Of a stretch of DNA of 64,000 nucleotides, positions 1,147 to 9,921 are shown piece by piece (the first letter of the stretch is position 1; every line of letters starts with the position of its first letter). A program made the translations under genes and the position numbers. Source of the stretch: Lutibacter sp. A64 (lineage in GTDB: Bacteria; Bacteroidota; Bacteroidia; Flavobacteriales; Flavobacteriaceae); assembly GCF_022429565.1 (NCBI RefSeq), contig NZ_CP092487.1, positions 2,932,001-2,996,000 of the forward strand. Reading direction: 5' to 3'. The notes below the pieces were generated by a model. The model did no database searches and was not told the DNA's origin. It saw only the letters and a list, made by a program, of their open reading frames with translations.

Positions 1147-2010
1147 TTGAAAAACATACCTAATATATCATTTAAAAGTTTAGAAAATAAAATTGATTTT
1201 GAGTTTCTAAATCTGTCTAAATTATTTAAAAGATTAGATACAATTAATGATCATGACCCAACGGAACCACATAGAATTTCTTTTTTTGCGTTGCTTATTG
1301 TTACTAAAGGAACAGGTAAACATCAAATAGATTTAAATGAATATAATTTGTCTGAAGGAACTGTATTAAAAATTGCAAAAGGACAGGTTCATGCGTTTCA
1401 AAAAAACGCAAAATACAAAGGATTTTTAATATTATTTACAGAGAGTTTTGTACTTAATCACTTTTCAAAATCTTCAATAAATGTAATTTCACATTTATAC
1501 AATTACCATATAACTTCACCTATCTTTAACGATAAAACCGATAATGAATCTTTTCTAAATCAACTTATTGCAGAGCTTAATACCGAAAATGATTATGCTC
1601 AAAAAAATATTGTAGCTGCATTGTTAAATTTGTATTTATTAAGGTTAGAACGCAAATCAAATAACAATAAATTACAGAACAATAATTTTAATCTTTATAC
1701 TGTATTTATTCAATTTAAAAATTATGTAGAAGTTAATTATACAACTACAAGAAACGTAAAAGATTACGCTAAAATGTTATTTATTTCTACAAAATTTTTA
1801 AATCAAGTGGTAAAAGAATTTACATTAGATACTGCTAAAACGTTTATAGATAATTATGTAGTTTTAGAAATTAAAAGATCTATTGTAAGTAGTAATAATA
1901 GTTTTAAAGAAATTGCCTTTGAAAAAGGTTTTGATGAGGTTACCAATTTTACCAAATTTTTTAAAAAGCACACGGGTACAACTCCTAAACAGTTTAAAGC
2001 TAAGCTGTAA
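1147..2010 (+). CDS. AraC-family transcriptional regulator
   Basis: A 287-residue protein with AraC_binding-type cupin sheets at about residues 40-110 (includes FFALLIVTKGTGKHQID and VHAF) and a C-terminal double helix-turn-helix at about 195-285 ending in GTTPKQFK, the usual second-helix signature. The start is TTG; no in-frame ATG occurs before the middle of the protein and stops lie upstream. The effector is presumably a small molecule bound by the cupin. It is followed by four transcription units that share a paired 21-bp-spaced site, so it is the obvious candidate for their activator. That assignment is inference from proximity and site geometry. Confidence 0.9.
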   Translation: MKNIPNISFKSLENKIDFEFLNLSKLFKRLDTINDHDPTEPHRISFFALLIVTKGTGKHQIDLNEYNLSEGTVLKIAKGQVHAFQKNAKYKGFLILFTESFVLNHFSKSSINVISHLYNYHITSPIFNDKTDNESFLNQLIAELNTENDYAQKNIVAALLNLYLLRLERKSNNNKLQNNNFNLYTVFIQFKNYVEVNYTTTRNVKDYAKMLFISTKFLNQVVKEFTLDTAKTFIDNYVVLEIKRSIVSSNNSFKEIAFEKGFDEVTNFTKFFKKHTGTTPKQFKAKL

Positions 2011-2026
2011 TTTTTAATATTCGCAT

Positions 2027-2085
2027 ATTTACCATTATTTTATAAAGATTAACCTTTTCAACTATTAAGCATTAGTTCAACTTTG
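2027..2085 (+). promoter_or_regulatory. Paired activator site and -7 box, unit 1 (MoaF-like)
   Basis: Half-site 1 ATTTACC is at 2027-2033 and half-site 2 ATTAACC at 2048-2054 (21 bp start to start). A weak box CAACTTTG is at 2078-2085. The second half-site ends 31 bp before the end of the box. Two direct half-sites two helical turns apart, close to a poor promoter, are typical of AraC-type activation. The start codon of the MoaF-like gene is at 2110. Confidence 0.75.
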
Positions 2086-2109
2086 TGGCTAACTTTAAAT
2101 TCAAAAAAA

Positions 2110-2559
2110 ATGAAAATAAAATTAGTTATACTACTGTGTTTAATACTAGTAACAGGAGCAGTTAGTTTTGCACAAAATCAAATTTTTGAAGATAATAATT
2201 TTCAATTTGGACAACCTCAACACTTACTAGATGGCTACTCATTAAATTTTCAATATCAAAATGGTACTGGGTTGCATATGGAATTTAATAATGGCAAAGC
2301 ACAATACCAATGGGTTGCAGGACCGAATAAAGGAAAAGGAAATAAAGAAATTCCTTATCGTTCAAGTAAAATAGGTCACAATCTTTATTTAGTTAATTGG
2401 CACGAAGAAGGTTTAAAAGATTACTTAACAATTGTTTTTGATTTTAATAATATGATAATGCATAGCTCTATAATTGTCGGCTACCAAAATAATCCAGAAA
2501 GAACTTTAAAAACAGTGTTTTTAAGAGGTGTAATTGACCATTTAAAGAGTGTTAATTAA
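2110..2559 (+). CDS. Exported MoaF-like (calycin-type) protein
   Basis: The ATG at 2110 gives 149 residues starting with a classical signal peptide (hydrophobic core LVILLCLILVTGAV, ends SFAQ). An in-frame start at 2083 would put nine odd residues before it and is rejected. The mature part resembles the MoaF N-terminal family: GYSLNFQYQNG, YQWVAGPNKG, LYLVNWHE. The family is known from the Klebsiella monoamine regulon; despite the name, a molybdenum-cofactor role is doubtful. The signal peptide places it in the periplasm or outside. It is first in a two-gene unit with the methyltransferase and lies behind an AraC-type site. The biochemical function is unknown. Confidence 0.7.
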   Translation: MKIKLVILLCLILVTGAVSFAQNQIFEDNNFQFGQPQHLLDGYSLNFQYQNGTGLHMEFNNGKAQYQWVAGPNKGKGNKEIPYRSSKIGHNLYLVNWHEEGLKDYLTIVFDFNNMIMHSSIIVGYQNNPERTLKTVFLRGVIDHLKSVN

Positions 2560-2560
2560 T

Positions 2561-3190
2561 ATGTTAAATACACAATTTAATAAGATAGAGTCAACTTTAA
2601 ATCAATTATTTAACGAGTCTAAGAATGATCGTTATAAAATAATGAAAAGTTTAGCAAAAAGTGCTTTAAGATCTATTAAACCAATTGATTTTAAAGATGT
2701 TTATCTTTCAATTACAAAAAAACAAGGGATAGATTTGGTACAACTTGTTAAAGAAAATAATTTTAAAAATATAGTTGAGTTTGGAACTTCATTTGGAATA
2801 TCTACACTTTTTTTAGCGCAAGGTGTACTAGAAACAAAAGGGAAAATAATTACTACAGAATTATTGGAATCTAAAGCAAAAATAGCCATAGAAAACTTTA
2901 AAACTGCAGAAGTAAATAAGTTGATTGAAGTTAGAATTGGTGATGCTATGGAAACTTTAAAAGGTTATAATAAACCTATAGATTTATTGTTTTTAGATGG
3001 TTGGAAAGACTTGTATTTATCATTATTTTTAATGCTAGAATCTAATTTTAATAGCAATACTATTATTTATGTAGATAATGCAAATATGGAAGAATCACAA
3101 CTTTTTTTAAAAAAGATAAGCAAAAATACTGATTATTTTTTTACTTCAAAATATAAAGGTAAAGTGGTTTTAATTAAGAAAATACATTAA
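2561..3190 (+). CDS. Class I SAM-dependent methyltransferase
   Basis: The ATG at 2561 lies one base after the stop of the MoaF-like gene (a GTG at 2549 would overlap it). The product has 209 residues. The Rossmann glycine motif is VEFGTSFGISTLFLAQG at about residues 71-87. An acidic ligand for SAM ribose follows after a KGKIITTE strand, and DLLFLDGWKD at about 145 is motif III/IV. The pattern is that of small O-methyltransferase-like enzymes (Methyltransf_24). No signal peptide is seen, so it is cytoplasmic although co-transcribed with an exported protein. The substrate is unknown; the regulon context suggests a metabolite made or modified by the neighbouring enzymes. Confidence 0.8.
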   Translation: MLNTQFNKIESTLNQLFNESKNDRYKIMKSLAKSALRSIKPIDFKDVYLSITKKQGIDLVQLVKENNFKNIVEFGTSFGISTLFLAQGVLETKGKIITTELLESKAKIAIENFKTAEVNKLIEVRIGDAMETLKGYNKPIDLLFLDGWKDLYLSLFLMLESNFNSNTIIYVDNANMEESQLFLKKISKNTDYFFTSKYKGKVVLIKKIH

Positions 3191-3225
3191 CTAAGGGACA
3201 ATAATTATTAGTTAATAATTCACAT

Positions 3226-3284
3226 ATTTACCATTTTTAATAGAAGATTTACCTTTTAAATTATTGTAATAAATATCATTTTTG
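3226..3284 (+). promoter_or_regulatory. Paired activator site and -7 box, unit 2 (MBL enzyme)
   Basis: ATTTACC is at 3226-3232 and again at 3247-3253 (21 bp apart). The box CATTTTTG is at 3277-3284, ending 31 bp after half-site 2. The segment around the half-sites is identical over about 36 bp to the one at 4829-4864. Confidence 0.8.
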
Positions 3285-3345
3285 ACTAAAAAAAAAGCTT
3301 TTAAAAAAGCTGAAAGTTGGTAATTAGAATCGAAAATTAATAGAA

Positions 3346-4782
3346 ATGAAAATAAGAAAGAATAAAACGTTAAATATTTACGTATCAGTCAATAAAAAAT
3401 TTAATAGAGTTCTAAAATTTAGTATATTAATAATGGCAGTTATCATTTTGCAAGGATGTGAAAATACATCAGAAAAAAATATTACTCAAGAACAAAAATT
3501 AGAGCAAGAGCATCCAAATATTACTAAATTAAAAGGTCAAAGTACTGAATTTACTCCAGAAATTATCAAATTAAACGAAAATGTATATGTTGCCGTTGGT
3601 TATGATGGTTCAAATACATCAATGGTTATTGGTGAAGACGGAGTTGTAATTATTGATGCGCTTCGTGCACTAGGTGCTGCAGAAATTGTAGCAAATAAAT
3701 TTAGAGAAATAACTAGTAAACCTGTTAAGGCAGTAATTTATACACACGGACATGACGATCATACCGGTGGAACTTCTGCTTTTATAGGTGATAGTAAAAA
3801 TGTAAAAATTATTGCGAGAGCTGGATTTAAAGAGGAATTACAAGGTAAATCTCCTGTAGAACCTATTTTAAAAAAACGTAATGGACGACAGTTTGGACGC
3901 GATTTACCTGCTAAAGATATTATTAATAGAGGTGTTGCTCCTGGAAGTACGTCAAAAGATAGAGTTGGCAAGGGATATATTGAGCCAAATATTACACTTA
4001 ATGACTCTTTGTTTGTTAATTTAGCAGGTATAGATTTTCAACTTTTTGCAGCTAATGGAGAAACAAATGATGAACTTTTTGTTTGGATACCAAGCGAAGA
4101 ATCTTTGTTTACAGGAGATAATTATTACAAATCATTTCCTAACCTTTATGCAATTAGAGGTTCTCAATATAGAGATGTTAAATCTTGGGGAGAATCAATT
4201 CAAAAAATGAGCACTTTTCCAGTAGAACATATTATACCAGGGCATACACGCCCAGTATCTGGAAAAACAATTGCTTATAAAAATCTTAAAAATTATTCAA
4301 CAGCTATTTTAAGTGTTTACCAACAAACAATAGATGCTTTAAATAAAGGTTATACACTTCAGCAAACGGTAGAAAGCGTTAAATTGGCAGATTCTCTAAG
4401 AAATCAACCTAATTTACAAGAGTTTTATGGTTCAGTTTCCTGGGGAGTTCGTTCTATATTTCTTCATTATGTAGGTTGGTTTGATGGAAACCCAACAAAC
4501 CTTTATCCGTTATCTTCAGCAAAAGAAGCAAAGCATATAGTTGAACTTGCAGGTGGTAAAGAAAAAGTTTTAGAGCATTTAAATAATACGGTTAAAAATG
4601 GTGATTACCAATGGGGTTTACAATTAGCAGATTATCTACTTCAAACAGATTATAAAATAACAAAAATCACAGAAATTAAAATTCAATTGTTAAGAAGTAT
4701 AGCTGCACAACAAATAAATGCGCCTGCTAGAAATTATTACCTTTCTTATGCATACGAATTGGAAAAAAATAATGTAAAGTAG
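3346..4782 (+). CDS. Lipoprotein MBL-fold hydrolase, alkylsulfatase-like
   Basis: A 478-residue protein with a basic N terminus, hydrophobic segment and lipobox LQGC at residues 35-38, so probably a membrane-anchored periplasmic lipoprotein. The metallo-beta-lactamase zinc motif THGHDDH is at 133-139. Further metal ligands are expected in GETNDE and in PGHTRP. The second part contains the GVRSIFLHYVGWFDGNP signature of the alkyl-sulfatase dimerisation domain. Compared with SdsA1-type alkylsulfatases (about 650 residues) the C-terminal SCP2-like domain is missing. Hydrolysis of an alkyl sulfate ester is the family activity; the true substrate may differ. It is transcribed alone from an AraC-type promoter. 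Confidence 0.85.
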   Translation: MKIRKNKTLNIYVSVNKKFNRVLKFSILIMAVIILQGCENTSEKNITQEQKLEQEHPNITKLKGQSTEFTPEIIKLNENVYVAVGYDGSNTSMVIGEDGVVIIDALRALGAAEIVANKFREITSKPVKAVIYTHGHDDHTGGTSAFIGDSKNVKIIARAGFKEELQGKSPVEPILKKRNGRQFGRDLPAKDIINRGVAPGSTSKDRVGKGYIEPNITLNDSLFVNLAGIDFQLFAANGETNDELFVWIPSEESLFTGDNYYKSFPNLYAIRGSQYRDVKSWGESIQKMSTFPVEHIIPGHTRPVSGKTIAYKNLKNYSTAILSVYQQTIDALNKGYTLQQTVESVKLADSLRNQPNLQEFYGSVSWGVRSIFLHYVGWFDGNPTNLYPLSSAKEAKHIVELAGGKEKVLEHLNNTVKNGDYQWGLQLADYLLQTDYKITKITEIKIQLLRSIAAQQINAPARNYYLSYAYELEKNNVK

Positions 4783-4831
4783 CATTATGGTATCATAAAA
4801 ATTAAAGCATTATGTAATTTAAAATTCTCAT

Positions 4832-4890
4832 ATTTACCATTTTTAATAGAAGATTTACCTTTTACAGATTAGTTATAAATATGACTTTTG
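4832..4890 (+). promoter_or_regulatory. Paired activator site and -7 box, unit 3 (egt operon)
   Basis: ATTTACC is at 4832-4838 and 4853-4859 (21 bp apart). The box GACTTTTG is at 4883-4890 and ends 31 bp after half-site 2, the same geometry as at 2027, 3226 and 7776. The first gene starts at 4916. Confidence 0.8.
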
Positions 4891-4915
4891 AAAAAGTAAT
4901 AATTTAATTATAACT

Positions 4916-5644
4916 ATGAGTTTACTTGAAAATATATTAAAAAAGGTTGTTTTAGATAAAGCAATCATAGAAAAAAAAGAACAAATTTCAGCATTAGTTT
5001 ATAAAATTCGGCTTAAAAGCGAAAGTATAAAAACTGCAGAATTTACACCTGGTTATTTTTTAAGGTTAGGTATTGGAATTGGTAATGACACTATTTCTTT
5101 TAAAGATAAAGTTAGAAGTTATAGTGTTTGGAATATTAATAAAACAGAAGGGTACTTAGATATAGCTATTGCAACAGAAAGTAAAGGGATTGGGGCGCAA
5201 TGGGTTACAAACTGTAAAGAAGGAGATAGTGTGTATTTTAAATGGAAAAAAGGAAATTTTTTAGTAGATGAAACCGCAACAAGTTATTTAATGATTGGAG
5301 ATTTATCTGCCTTATCTCATTTATATATTTTAAATAGAAATTTATCAAAAAATAAACAAATAGAAAGCTTAATTTATAGTGAAAAAGCTACTAATCTATT
5401 TAAAGATATAGATAACTCTACACCATTTAACTTCTATAGCTTAGAACAGAATACTACTACCGAAATATTGAATTTAGTTAAAGATATTATACCTAAAATG
5501 AAGGGAAATAAAAAGGTTTATATTGCTGGCGATAGTAGAGTTTGTATTGCGCTAAATCAATACTTTAAAAAAGAATTAAATTGGAGTACCAAACAAATTA
5601 AAACCAAGCCATTTTGGAATCCAAATAAAAAAGGATTAGAATAA
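4916..5644 (+). CDS. Siderophore-interacting-protein-like FAD oxidoreductase
   Basis: A 242-residue cytosolic protein. The FAD-binding beta-barrel is recognised by a GYFLRLG strand and RSYSVWN (the RxYS/T flavin motif) at about residues 65-71. The NAD(P)H-binding part ends in KPFWNPNKKGLE, which resembles the closing YWxPGKxGLE motif of SIP/ViuB ferric reductases. It is the first gene of a tight operon with egtB (1-nt gap) and egtD. No siderophore genes are near. A redox role in the thiohistidine pathway, for instance supplying electrons or reducing a sulfoxide intermediate, is an inference from operon structure only. Confidence 0.75.
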   Translation: MSLLENILKKVVLDKAIIEKKEQISALVYKIRLKSESIKTAEFTPGYFLRLGIGIGNDTISFKDKVRSYSVWNINKTEGYLDIAIATESKGIGAQWVTNCKEGDSVYFKWKKGNFLVDETATSYLMIGDLSALSHLYILNRNLSKNKQIESLIYSEKATNLFKDIDNSTPFNFYSLEQNTTTEILNLVKDIIPKMKGNKKVYIAGDSRVCIALNQYFKKELNWSTKQIKTKPFWNPNKKGLE

Positions 5645-5645
5645 A

Positions 5646-6794
5646 ATGAATATAAATCAAAAATACAAACAAATACGGCAAGAAACGACTGAGTTTTGTA
5701 GTCATTTACATATTGAAGACTATGCCATACAGGTTGTTAAATTTGCTAGTCCACCAAAATGGCATTTGGCGCATACCACTTGGTTTTTTGAAACTTTTAT
5801 TTTGAAAAATTATATAGAAAATTATACCGAATTTAATTCTAATTTTAACTTTCTTTTTAATAGTTATTATAACAATGCTGGTGATAGAATTTTACAAGCT
5901 AACAGAGGTAATATGTCTAGACCAACTACTGATGAAATTTTTGAATATAGAGCATATGTAGATACTAAAATACAAGAATTTTTACAAAATGTTTCTGATA
6001 AAAAAATTATTGATTTAGTAACTCTTGGTCTAAATCACGAGCAGCAACATCAAGAATTATTAATTACTGATGTAAAATATATGTTTGGACACAATCCTAT
6101 TTTTCCTATGTTTAATAATAAATTTAATTTGGTAAAAGATAAAAATAAATCTTTCGAAAACATAAAAATAAAAGAGGGAGTTTATGAAATTGGACATAAA
6201 GGAAACGACTTTTGTTATGATAATGAATTGGGAGTTCACAAAGTTTATGTAGCAGATTTTGAAATAAATAATTACTTAGTTACCAATGGAGATTTTATAG
6301 ATTTTATAGAATCTGGTGCTTATGCCGATTTTAATCTTTGGTTAGATGAGGGGTGGACTTGGGTAAATATTAACAACATAAATTCACCAATGTATTGGCA
6401 TAAAATTAAAGGAGAATGGCATTATTATACTCTTGCAGGATTGCAAAAAGTAGATAAAAAAGCAATTTTAAGTCATATTAATTATTATGAAGCGAATGCT
6501 TTTGCCGAATGGAAAGGTATGCGATTACCTACTGAGTTTGAATGGGAAATTGCTTCTAAACAGTTAAATTGGGGAAAACGTTGGGAATGGACAAACAGTG
6601 CTTATTTACCATACCCAAATTTTAAAAAAGAAAATGGAGCGGTTGGAGAATACAATGGTAAATTTATGAGTAATAAAATTGTGTTAAAAGGAGCTTCAGT
6701 AGCAACTTCAAAAAAACATAGTAGGTCTACATATCGTAACTTTTTTGGACCAACAGAAAGATGGCAATATACAGGAATACGATTAGCTAAATAA
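5646..6794 (+). CDS. egtB: Ergothioneine-type sulfoxide synthase EgtB
   Basis: A 382-residue non-heme iron enzyme that joins hercynine to a cysteine-type thiol with O2. The N-terminal DinB-like domain carries the iron ligands: WHLAH with H43 and NHEQQH with H131 and H135. The C-terminal FGE-sulfatase-type domain shows MRLPTEFEWEIA, NGAVGEYNGKFM and a TYRNFFGPTERWQYTGIRLA ending, all standard for EgtB. No egtA (gamma-Glu-Cys ligase) or egtC (amidohydrolase) is adjacent, suggesting direct use of cysteine as in some other bacterial EgtB enzymes; this is inference. It lies between the flavin reductase gene and egtD. Confidence 0.93.
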   Translation: MNINQKYKQIRQETTEFCSHLHIEDYAIQVVKFASPPKWHLAHTTWFFETFILKNYIENYTEFNSNFNFLFNSYYNNAGDRILQANRGNMSRPTTDEIFEYRAYVDTKIQEFLQNVSDKKIIDLVTLGLNHEQQHQELLITDVKYMFGHNPIFPMFNNKFNLVKDKNKSFENIKIKEGVYEIGHKGNDFCYDNELGVHKVYVADFEINNYLVTNGDFIDFIESGAYADFNLWLDEGWTWVNINNINSPMYWHKIKGEWHYYTLAGLQKVDKKAILSHINYYEANAFAEWKGMRLPTEFEWEIASKQLNWGKRWEWTNSAYLPYPNFKKENGAVGEYNGKFMSNKIVLKGASVATSKKHSRSTYRNFFGPTERWQYTGIRLAK

Positions 6795-6796
6795 GT

Positions 6797-7759
6797 ATGA
6801 CTGAAATTTTTAAGAAAGAAATAAAAGAAGGTTTAGAAGCAAGTCCTAAAACGCTTCCATCTAAATACTTTTATGATAAAACGGGAGATGCACTATTTGT
6901 AGAAATAATGAATTTACCAGAATATTATTTAACACGAAGTGAGTTAGATATATTTAAAAATAAAACGCAACAATTAATAGATTCTTTTAACTTAAAAACA
7001 GATACATATTTTGAATTAATAGAACTTGGTGCAGGTGATGGATTAAAAACTAAAGAGCTACTAAAAGAACTAGATGCACAGAATTTTAAATTCGATTTTT
7101 TTCCTATTGATATTTCTAAAAACGCGTTAGATCTTCTAGAAAAAGATTTAAAAAAAGAGATTCCAAATTTATCTGTAAAAACCCAACAAGGTGATTATTT
7201 TGAAATTTTACATTCTTTAAAAAAGAGTAAAAACCCAAAAATAGTTCTTTTTTTAGGTTCTAATATTGGAAATATGACAGATGTACAGGCTTCAAAATTT
7301 ATTTACAATCTTAGTGAAAATTTACAAGAAGATGATAAATTGTTGTTAGGAGTTGATTTAATAAAACCTAAAGAAATTGTATTACCTGCATATAATGATA
7401 GCAAAGGAATTACAGCAAAATTTAATCTTAATTTATTGCATAGAATTAATCGAGAATTAAGAGGTAATTTTAATTTAAATAACTTTAAACACTTACCTGA
7501 ATATACTGATAAAGAAGGAATTGCAAAAAGTTTTATAATTAGTACAACAAATCAAACAGTAGAAATAAAAGCAATAAATAAATCTTTTAATTTTAGTGAA
7601 GGAGAAAAAATTCATACTGAAATTTCAAGAAAATATAACAATATTATTATTCAAGAAATTATTTCAAATACCAACTTTATAATTGATACTAAAATAATGG
7701 ATAGTAAAAAATACTTTGCAGATTATATTTTTACACGAACATCAAAATTTAAACACTAA
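6797..7759 (+). CDS. egtD: L-histidine N(alpha)-methyltransferase EgtD
   Basis: A 320-residue protein that trimethylates histidine to hercynine, the substrate of EgtB. Family marks are SPKTLPSKYFYDKTGDALF at the N terminus, PEYYLTRSE, the SAM site ELIELGAGDG at about residues 73-82, FPIDIS and VLFLGSNIGN. It starts 2 nt after the egtB stop, the last gene of the AraC-controlled three-gene unit. A PLP-type EgtE lyase, needed for the last step in mycobacteria, is not present in the window. Confidence 0.93.
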   Translation: MTEIFKKEIKEGLEASPKTLPSKYFYDKTGDALFVEIMNLPEYYLTRSELDIFKNKTQQLIDSFNLKTDTYFELIELGAGDGLKTKELLKELDAQNFKFDFFPIDISKNALDLLEKDLKKEIPNLSVKTQQGDYFEILHSLKKSKNPKIVLFLGSNIGNMTDVQASKFIYNLSENLQEDDKLLLGVDLIKPKEIVLPAYNDSKGITAKFNLNLLHRINRELRGNFNLNNFKHLPEYTDKEGIAKSFIISTTNQTVEIKAINKSFNFSEGEKIHTEISRKYNNIIIQEIISNTNFIIDTKIMDSKKYFADYIFTRTSKFKH

Positions 7760-7775
7760 AATAAAAGCAGCTCAT

Positions 7776-7834
7776 TTTCACCATTTTTTTACTAAGATGT
7801 ATCTATAAATTAATAAGTATCATTCGCACATTTG
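7776..7834 (+). promoter_or_regulatory. Degenerate paired activator site and -7 box, unit 4 (NmrA-like)
   Basis: TTTCACC is at 7776-7782 and ATGTATC at 7797-7803 (21 bp apart). The box CACATTTG is at 7827-7834, ending 31 bp after half-site 2. The half-sites are weaker than in the other three units, but spacing and the CCATTTTT and AAGAT context are kept. Confidence 0.6.
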
Positions 7835-7864: not shown

Positions 7865-8725
7865 ATGAAAATAGCAGTAACATCAACCAGTGGAAAATTA
7901 GGAGCTTCAATTGTAAGACACTTAATTGATGAAATAGGAAAAGAGCAAGTTATAGGTATTGCCCGCACACCTGAAAAAGCAACATATTTAGGAGTAGAAA
8001 TTATAAAAGGAGATTATAATAATAAACAAGATTTTGATGTAGCCTTAAAGGGTGTTGATGCAGTTCTTTTGGTTTCTGGAATGGATGAACCACAAAAGAG
8101 AATTATACAACATAGAAATGTAATTGAAGCAGCGAAAAATAATGGTGTTAAAAAAATAGTATACACTAGCATAATTGGAGCAGAAGAAAATAATGCTTTT
8201 AGTCCAATTGTACAAACCAATAGGCAAACTGAAAAAGACATTAGAAATTCCGGTTTAAAATGGGTTATTGGTAGAAATGGAATTTACATTGAACCAGATT
8301 TAGAATATTTAGATACCTATATAAAAGAAGGTGAAATTAGAAATTGTGCTTCTGACGGAAAATGTACATACACAAGCAGAGAAGAACTTGGTTATGCTTA
8401 TGCAAAGATGCTTTTAGAAGATAAACATAATGGGAATACTTATAATTTAGTTGGAGAAGGAATAAGTCAAACTGAGTTAGCAGAAAGCATTAATAAAGTT
8501 TATACTACTAATTTAGTTTATAATTCGGTTTCAGTTAAAGATTATGCAATAGAAAGAAAGTCAGATTTAGGAGAATTTATGGGAACTATTATTGCTGGAA
8601 TTTATGAAGGAATAAAAAATGGAGCAAATGATGTTCCTTCCGATTTTGAAAAAGCAGCTGGAAGATCACATAAATCTGCTTTAGAAATGGTAAAAACATT
8701 TAAAAGTATGAATACACTTTTTTAA
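7865..8725 (+). CDS. NmrA/QOR2-like NAD(P)-binding oxidoreductase
   Basis: A 286-residue atypical short-chain dehydrogenase. The dinucleotide motif TSTSGKLGASI lies at residues 6-16, followed by IARTPEK (NADP-binding Arg expected) and KKIVYTSIIGA at about 96-106. It lacks the catalytic YxxxK, as do NmrA-like and quinone oxidoreductase 2 (QorB/YtfG) proteins. A role as NADPH-dependent quinone or aldehyde reductase or as a redox sensor is possible. It is transcribed alone downstream of a degenerate copy of the AraC-type site. Confidence 0.8.
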   Translation: MKIAVTSTSGKLGASIVRHLIDEIGKEQVIGIARTPEKATYLGVEIIKGDYNNKQDFDVALKGVDAVLLVSGMDEPQKRIIQHRNVIEAAKNNGVKKIVYTSIIGAEENNAFSPIVQTNRQTEKDIRNSGLKWVIGRNGIYIEPDLEYLDTYIKEGEIRNCASDGKCTYTSREELGYAYAKMLLEDKHNGNTYNLVGEGISQTELAESINKVYTTNLVYNSVSVKDYAIERKSDLGEFMGTIIAGIYEGIKNGANDVPSDFEKAAGRSHKSALEMVKTFKSMNTLF

Positions 8726-9728: not shown

Positions 9729-9921
9729 AATTGTTAAATATACGGAATTTATTCATTAATATTTTATACTTTTAAATCCAATTCAATTTTATAAATAAAT
9801 TGAATTATTTTTTAATTAATTGAGAATAAAATTCAATGTTTAGTGCTACTAATTAAACAATAAAAATACCTATTTTTCTTAAATTAATTCAATAGAAACC
9901 AAACAAAAATTAAATTAAAAA
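9729..9921. other. Divergent intergenic region, NYN / glsA
   Basis: An AT-rich spacer of 193 nt. It holds an AATTCAATT/AATTGAATT inverted repeat near 9780-9806 and further ATTCAAT words (9831, 9887). No clear TAnnTTTG box was found. Confidence 0.4.

Follow-up and report, generated by a model that had tools for sequence, protein, structure and literature searches.

Predicted operators of an AraC-family regulon in Lutibacter sp. A64 and their conservation across Bacteroidota

In a 64,000-nt stretch of the Lutibacter sp. A64 genome (NZ_CP092487.1, positions 2,932,001 to 2,996,000; hereafter the window, which lies within a single contig of the 4.03-Mb genome), four consecutive units that follow a gene for an AraC-family protein are each preceded by two direct half-sites standing at a fixed distance from a TTTG-type −7 box. 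Sequence comparison identifies these elements as the operator set of an AraC-family regulon that is conserved across Bacteroidota, and the AraC-family protein encoded at 1147–2010 very likely recognizes the half-sites and turns on all four transcription units as a single regulon. The original prediction, made from the letters of the window, had proposed this regulon and its likely activator, and the comparative data support it, as 43 of 44 orthologue loci and 24 of 36 distant loci (both among the matches listed) have the same layout beside their AraC gene, and the layout is rare where no orthologue occurs. The predicted elements are given below; L and G numbers used hereafter label loci and genomes of the comparative set.

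2021..2054, + strand: operator 1 (predicted), half-sites ATTTACC at 2027-2033 and ATTAACC at 2048-2054
2078..2085, + strand: −7 box of promoter 1 (predicted), CAACTTTG, ending 31 bp past the second half-site
3220..3253, + strand: operator 2 (predicted), half-sites ATTTACC at 3226-3232 and 3247-3253
3277..3284, + strand: −7 box of promoter 2 (predicted), CATTTTTG
4826..4859, + strand: operator 3 (predicted), half-sites ATTTACC at 4832-4838 and 4853-4859
4883..4890, + strand: −7 box of promoter 3 (predicted), GACTTTTG
7770..7803, + strand: operator 4 (predicted, degenerate), half-sites TTTCACC at 7776-7782 and ATGTATC at 7797-7803
7827..7834, + strand: −7 box of promoter 4 (predicted), CACATTTG

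At all four window sites the half-sites of a pair are 21 bp apart, which is the arrangement of AraC-type class II operators, with two direct half-sites about two helical turns from each other. The second half-sites end at 2054, 3253, 4859 and 7803, and the end of a NANNTTTG-type box follows 31 bp later in every case, at 2085, 3284, 4890 and 7834; both distances had been predicted and are exact on the sequence. None of the four boxes is the canonical sigma-A −7 box, TAnnTTTG with its first T, this T being absent from all four, as had also been claimed. Sites 2 and 3 do share the predicted 36-bp identity (3223–3258 and 4829–4864). It had been attributed to either duplication or strong selection, of which duplication is the better fit: the 8-bp spacer, generally poorly conserved, is identical at 8/8 positions only between sites 2 and 3. 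Likewise, the operators at 9877 and 10664 of L124 have their spacer, otherwise poorly conserved, in common, and such operators with the same spacer within one genome suggest that copying of the operator brings new units into the regulon.

Among 397 family genomes, 15 have an AraC orthologue at E ≤1e-60; at a looser E of 1e-30 the number is 15 of 100 genomes, the own genome being counted in both. Our orthologue set comprised 44 loci, namely the window and 43 named loci with regulators of at least 52% identity (52–79%), the closest of those listed being that of Lutibacter citreus at 79%; all counts over these loci, and over the distant loci and further genomes described below, are among the matches listed. 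In 43 of the 44 loci a first half-site with at most one mismatch lies within 350 nt past the araC stop, and in 39 of these 43 a TTTG stands exactly at +55 from the start of that half-site, the remaining four (L180, L143, L142 and L141) having a box that is shifted or reads TTTA. Removal of near-identical strains left these proportions at 36/37 and 32/36. In L143 (9879) and L141 (9874) we observed half-sites 20 bp apart, not 21, with the TTTG box of L143 moved along by one base.

Sites were also collected upstream of genes in 57 loci, using the first half-site alone, with CA, TA or CG at −3/−2 and a gene start within 20–300 nt. Since this set holds near-identical strains, and L055/L111 and L059/L102 are the same places, counts were repeated without near copies. 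The search gave 80 sites, 2 of them inside a reading frame, and 68 had TTTG at +55 (54/65 in the non-redundant count); no other TTTG offset occurred more than three times, and the three cases at +34 arise when the same boxes are measured from the second half-site instead. From the upstream sites with TTTG at +55 we then kept those with less than 80% mutual identity (from 69 to 53, with site 7776 added by hand), giving a 53-site set in which the first half-site, the −3/−2 bases and the TTTG are conserved by construction, and the second half-site and the first box base provide independent tests, as do the TTTG offsets seen in the orthologue loci and among the 80 sites. The second half-site is conserved though unselected, with T at +22 in 53/53 sites and A at +25 in 52/53, and its best match is at +21 in 51/53; the stretch before the box is not conserved.

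The full pattern that we used for genome scans, CAYATTTACCATT-N11-ATTNACC-N27-TTTG with up to three mismatches, was drawn from the first three window sites and sites of relatives. In the window it has three matches with 0 mismatches each, against none in 100 shuffles, and the whole genome at the same threshold yields these three matches and no other, with none for the reversed pattern. As the pattern derives from these very sites, the window count is no independent test; that is supplied by a position matrix built from 46 sites of other genera, leaving out the window and the sister species L104. The best window positions on this out-of-genus matrix are 4832 (51.8), 3226 (46.2), 2027 (43.0) and 7776 (34.1), followed by a fifth at 6.4, and the reversed window reaches 1.4 at best. 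From these comparisons we take the fourth site to be real but degenerate, on two grounds: its fourth rank with the matrix (34.1 vs 6.4), and a near-perfect site (one mismatch, as the G022 site) at the orthologous nmrA promoter of L104. The half-site pair of the original prediction, scanned genome-wide by itself, turned out to be unspecific: ATTTACC-N14-ATTTACC has four exact matches in the genome, two of them outside the cluster at loci without any regulon family, and the reversed control has one. We therefore rejected the short motif as a genome-wide marker.

Scans of other genomes gave a consistent association with the regulon at low mismatch numbers. Across the 16 orthologue-bearing genomes the full pattern occurs 35 times, in 15 genomes, and its reversed form twice; 30 of the matches lie in regulon loci and the other five all have three mismatches, four of these having been inspected (the fifth, G204:C35, was left out) and found to be without a family gene. 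A further 26 genomes, taken from the matches listed in a scan of named genome contigs, contain 37 matches in 24 genomes against 18 reversed. Those with at most two mismatches are all in regulon loci (26/26), and those with three (n = 11) are divided between 5 inside and 6 outside, with no family gene at the 2 of the 6 that were inspected. The non-cluster matches, together with the reversed-control matches (2 and 18), led us to reject the pattern at exactly three mismatches as a stand-alone marker. In 16 genomes (14 of the genus and 2 of the family) without an AraC match at E 1e-30, we found 4 matches against 1 reversed, two of them in G051 and the other two with no family gene nearby. Among 395 phylum genomes searched at up to two mismatches there are 13 matches in 8 genomes, against 5 reversed. 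Seven of the 13 are in already known genomes (G000, G194 and G038), and 5 of the 6 new ones stand beside an AraC gene or regulon families: two in G638 within a cluster with a 72% identical AraC, one in G642 with SnoaL-type, O-methyltransferase and small CxxC genes around it, one in G200 beside a 33% AraC and a 42% metallo-beta-lactamase (MBL) relative, and one in G834 after a 27% AraC relative; the single new match in G764 has no family gene beside it. No site occurs in eight egtB loci, each about 4 kb long and distant from the AraC matches of the 100-genome search; their best score is 3.5. The AraC match of G051 (L098, 6380–7300) is split between frames and the small CxxC gene there has an early stop, while two operators around egtB-egtD-nmrA are retained, so that this regulon seems to be decaying.

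The layout extends to more divergent regulators and to dispersed genes. In a distant set of 36 loci with AraC proteins of 32–44% identity (Saprospiraceae, Cytophagales, Marinilabiliaceae and others), 24 have a site that scores higher than the maximum of the reversed control (9.0), and 20 of these 24 have their top-scoring site no more than 150 nt past araC. In G311 the pattern occurs at four places far apart and unlinked, always ahead of a gene of the family set. One match follows araC and precedes small CxxC and nmrA genes; a second stands ahead of a MoaF gene, a third ahead of an MBL gene accompanied by SnoaL-type and O-methyltransferase genes, and the fourth ahead of a DUF4405 cytochrome-b-like gene adjoining a SIP gene. 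The three detached sites have three mismatches each and score 38.4, 48.4 and 38.6 on the matrix, the last two being sites that belonged to the matrix-building set, and the next best score per stretch is below 0. These dispersed sites indicate that the motif marks the gene set, not merely the cluster.

The promoter that accompanies the operator differs from the usual one. Mapped Flavobacterium promoters have a sigma-A −7 box TAnnTTTG that ends at −5 (PMC9723704). The sites analyzed here keep the A and the TTTG of that box but have C or G for its first T in 42/53 sites, with T in only 9, so the loss of this T in the window holds generally. Elsewhere in these loci, 471 upstream regions contain 234 comparison boxes XANNTTTG, which are not mapped promoters and have T in 99 cases and C/G in 73; the C/G excess at the first box base (42/53 vs 73/234) is significant at p = 1.9e-10. 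A TTG at the expected position of the −33 element (+29 to +31) is present in 4/53 sites. If the TTTG box ends at −5, the half-sites would span roughly −63 to −57 and −42 to −36, and the layout would be that of a class II activator; the distance to the box is fixed (TTTG at +55 in 39/43 loci and 68/80 sites), and the overlap with the −35/−33 region depends on the predicted start site. In class II activators such as AraC, the downstream-bound copy contacts sigma region 4. We propose that the product of 1147–2010 would bind both direct half-sites before each of the four units, that the downstream half-site would replace the −33 element, and that the bound regulator would touch sigma region 4. RNA polymerase would start poorly without the regulator, given a −7 box that begins with C or G and not with T and an almost missing −33 TTG, and the genes would stay off until the cupin domain binds an inducer.

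The candidate activator has the domain order expected of an AraC-family protein.

1147..2010, + strand: gene for the AraC-family regulator (likely activator), HTH_18 1.2e-15, AraC_binding cupin domain 1.5e-8

Its C-terminal AraC-type double helix-turn-helix (HTH) matches HTH_18 over residues 207–285 (58 bits, cut-off 33.6), the HTH_AraC profile staying under its cut-off (23.2 bits, cut-off 26.6), and the N-terminal cupin sensing domain matches AraC_binding (34.9 bits, cut-off 21.1). An AlphaFold2 model of the regulator (mean predicted local distance difference test score, pLDDT, 89.4) places beta strands between residues 7 and 97 and helices from 181 to 286. Its best fold matches are full-length AraC-family regulators, followed by the regulatory domains of RhaR and AraC. 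Full-length template modeling (TM) scores are 0.39–0.52 at a root-mean-square deviation near 8, values to be expected if the domains are oriented differently relative to each other, and the C-terminal part alone has a TM-score of 0.85 over the target 3lsg_A; no solved structure is close in sequence at 1e-12. The best named NCBIfam match is HpaA (90.7 bits over residues 45–285), far under the cut-off of 274.65, and we rejected an assignment as HpaA. HpaA senses an aromatic acid. HpaA-type regulators are linked to 4-hydroxyphenylacetate, and none of the nine neighboring proteins scanned names an enzyme of that pathway. The window AraC contains no cysteine, which excludes thiol oxidation of the regulator itself as the signal. 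Neither the upstream search nor the matrix scan of the window found a site of this kind before araC itself, and the regulator is thus probably not self-activated through this operator. A sulfatase gene, truncated by the window start, lies upstream of the AraC gene at 1–870.

Several observations weigh against an AraC-activated regulon with these operators. Window site 4 has four mismatches to the full pattern, beyond the limit and hence degenerate; the orthologue locus L118 has no site, and in the orthologue-bearing genome G048 a spacing shorter by 1 bp leaves the pattern without a match. Of the more remote material, 12/36 distant loci lack a site above control and 2/26 further genomes lack a pattern match. 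At exactly three mismatches the background is real, with 5/35 and 6/37 matches outside known loci, and the reversed control of the 26 further genomes gave 18 at up to three mismatches. The built-in conservation of the 53-site set and the unmapped comparison boxes belong on the same side, and activation, not repression, would be read from position alone.

The same AraC protein might act on these operators as a repressor, with occupancy from −63 to −36 blocking RNA polymerase until an inducer releases it. The half-sites would overlap the promoter, so a steric block is possible, and the same spacing data apply. An activator-dependent promoter nevertheless accounts better for C/G at the first box base (42/53) and for TTG at +29 to +31 in only 4/53 sites, and a rigid distance to the −7 box is more to be expected from polymerase contact than from mere blocking; we regard repression as improbable. 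It could also be that a different factor, either an alternative sigma factor or another regulator, reads an element that merely travels with araC. A fixed −7 box distance would be expected of an extended promoter as well, and two genomes lend this idea some support, G051 by keeping sites beside an araC with a frame-split match and G642 by having its site among regulon families with no AraC match inside the 3-kb locus. It is at odds, however, with a site within 350 nt after araC in 43/44 orthologue loci and within 150 nt in 20/24 site-bearing distant loci, and with the few matches in genomes without an orthologue. It is disfavored also because, to our knowledge, the geometry of sigma-factor sites does not involve 21-bp direct repeats upstream of −36, and we consider it highly improbable.

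We give almost no credence to the repeats being copies of a mobile or repeated element without a regulatory role. The 36 bp shared by sites 2 and 3, poorly conserved spacer included, would suit such copies, but the conservation profile contradicts them: across genera the spacer and the pre-box stretch diverge and the second half-site and the distances stay. Moreover, 68/80 sites stand before genes with a box at one offset, and the genome has just three pattern matches. The genes behind araC were assigned to predicted transcription units from their spacing.

2110..2559, + strand: MoaF-like protein gene (unit 1), PF22036 35.1 bits, cut-off 27
2561..3190, + strand: O-methyltransferase gene, Methyltransf_3 (unit 1), PF01596 49 bits, cut-off 22
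3346..4782, + strand: MBL-fold hydrolase with alkyl-sulfatase dimerisation domain (unit 2), PF14863 137 bits, PF00753 62.1 bits
4916..5644, + strand: FAD/NAD(P)-binding reductase, SIP family (unit 3), PF04954 31.9 and PF00970 30 bits, both over cut-off
5646..6794, + strand: egtB, predicted ergothioneine sulfoxide synthase (unit 3), TIGR03440 511.9 bits, over the cut-off of 360
6797..7759, + strand: egtD, predicted histidine N-alpha-methyltransferase (unit 3), PF10017 324.3 bits, cut-off 23
7865..8725, + strand: NmrA-family NAD(P)H-binding oxidoreductase gene (unit 4), PF13460 83 bits, PF05368 68.4 bits

By sequence, the nearest solved relatives of the MBL-fold hydrolase are alkyl sulfatases such as YjcS and SdsA1, and those of the NmrA protein are triphenylmethane reductase and ytfG, which we take to be quinone oxidoreductase 2. 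EgtB is closest to the Chloracidobacterium type, with solved chains 8qf6, 6qki and 6o6l at 349 bits vs 86 for 4x8b. This type presumably takes cysteine directly, in which case EgtC would be unnecessary. EgtD scores 284.6 bits on TIGR03438, just under the cut-off of 290.9, and 173.9 bits with the solved EgtD 4uy6. No EgtC- or EgtE-like protein is among the nine cluster proteins scanned, the C-S lyase EgtE not having been sought genome-wide. The window thus resembles known ergothioneine genes in having an EgtD-family protein and a Chloracidobacterium-type EgtB over cut-off, and differs from them in that EgtC/EgtE-like proteins are not among the cluster proteins scanned and in that the genes lie inside the AraC cluster, as they do in 13/44 loci. 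Within the genus, egtB over cut-off was found in 1/37 relatives (G022), which is also the sole one with a close AraC orthologue (80%); G009 and G011 have AraC relatives at 36–43%. An RNA-family search of the window found only a tRNA, and a tRNA-Ala on the opposite strand comes after unit 4.

Companion genes were counted over the 44 AraC loci, some of which are cut by contig ends. The commonest are nmrA (39), a small CxxC protein (32) and a ferric-reductase-like membrane protein (25), followed by the SIP reductase (20), the O-methyltransferase (18) and the MoaF-like protein (15); egtB and egtD (13 each), a racemase-like protein (7) and two MBL types (7 and 4) are rarer. These counts point to AraC plus NmrA as the regulon core, with ergothioneine synthesis optional but recurrent. 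The small CxxC protein (for example L104:11909-12106) has about 65 aa and one CPxCG-type motif, is without a Pfam match in the one member scanned and, in our reading, may be a coiled coil; its gene is most often the first after a site (18/68). Neither this protein nor the ferric-reductase-like protein was found in the window's genome, in searches run without a positive control.

Ergothioneine is an antioxidant. Redox or electrophile defense would be the most coherent reading of the regulon, because it combines ergothioneine synthesis with a quinone-reductase-like NmrA protein, a catechol-type O-methyltransferase and electron-transfer proteins. More tentatively, and with considerable doubt, one can picture a Bacteroidota-wide AraC-controlled electrophile/quinone defense regulon, in which an HpaA-like cupin sensor would switch on ergothioneine synthesis, an NADPH-quinone-reductase-like NmrA, a catechol-type O-methyltransferase, membrane cytochrome b with an FAD reductase, and the small CxxC protein. 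It would do so through a dedicated promoter class (a C/G-A-N-Y-TTTG −7 box, silent without the activator), new units joining by copying the 36-bp operator.

AraC class II regulons are a known kind of system; at araBAD, for example, araI1 and araI2 form a direct pair with a spacing of about 21 bp, adjacent to the core promoter. The regulon described here resembles E. coli AraC at araBAD in its pair of half-sites about 21 bp apart by the core promoter and in the order of cupin and then HTH domains, and differs in its TTTG-type −7 box, half-site sequence and gene set; nor did a distant looping operator come to light, though no search aimed at one was made. With arabinose bound, AraC occupies araI1 and araI2 at araBAD and recruits RNA polymerase (PMC4760080). 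This particular regulon we did not find in the literature: judged by titles, we found no paper on it, on its ergothioneine link or on its promoter variant, and none on a regulator of ergothioneine genes in Bacteroidota. The analysis supplies an operator definition, a candidate for the regulator, a set of genes and a rule for the promoter (C/G for the first T of the −7 box), all directly testable in Flavobacteriia that can be cultured, for example Lutibacter, Zobellia and Maribacter. It also gives comparative access to the question of how AraC activators work with the unusual promoter of Bacteroidota.

Two further features of the comparative loci concern gene content. An Asp/Glu-racemase-like gene is present at L028:11446-12108 and in 10 other loci, in several of them directly behind egtD. 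Arenibacter sp. ARW7G5Y1 has two copies of the AraC regulon (L138 and L124), with differing target sets.

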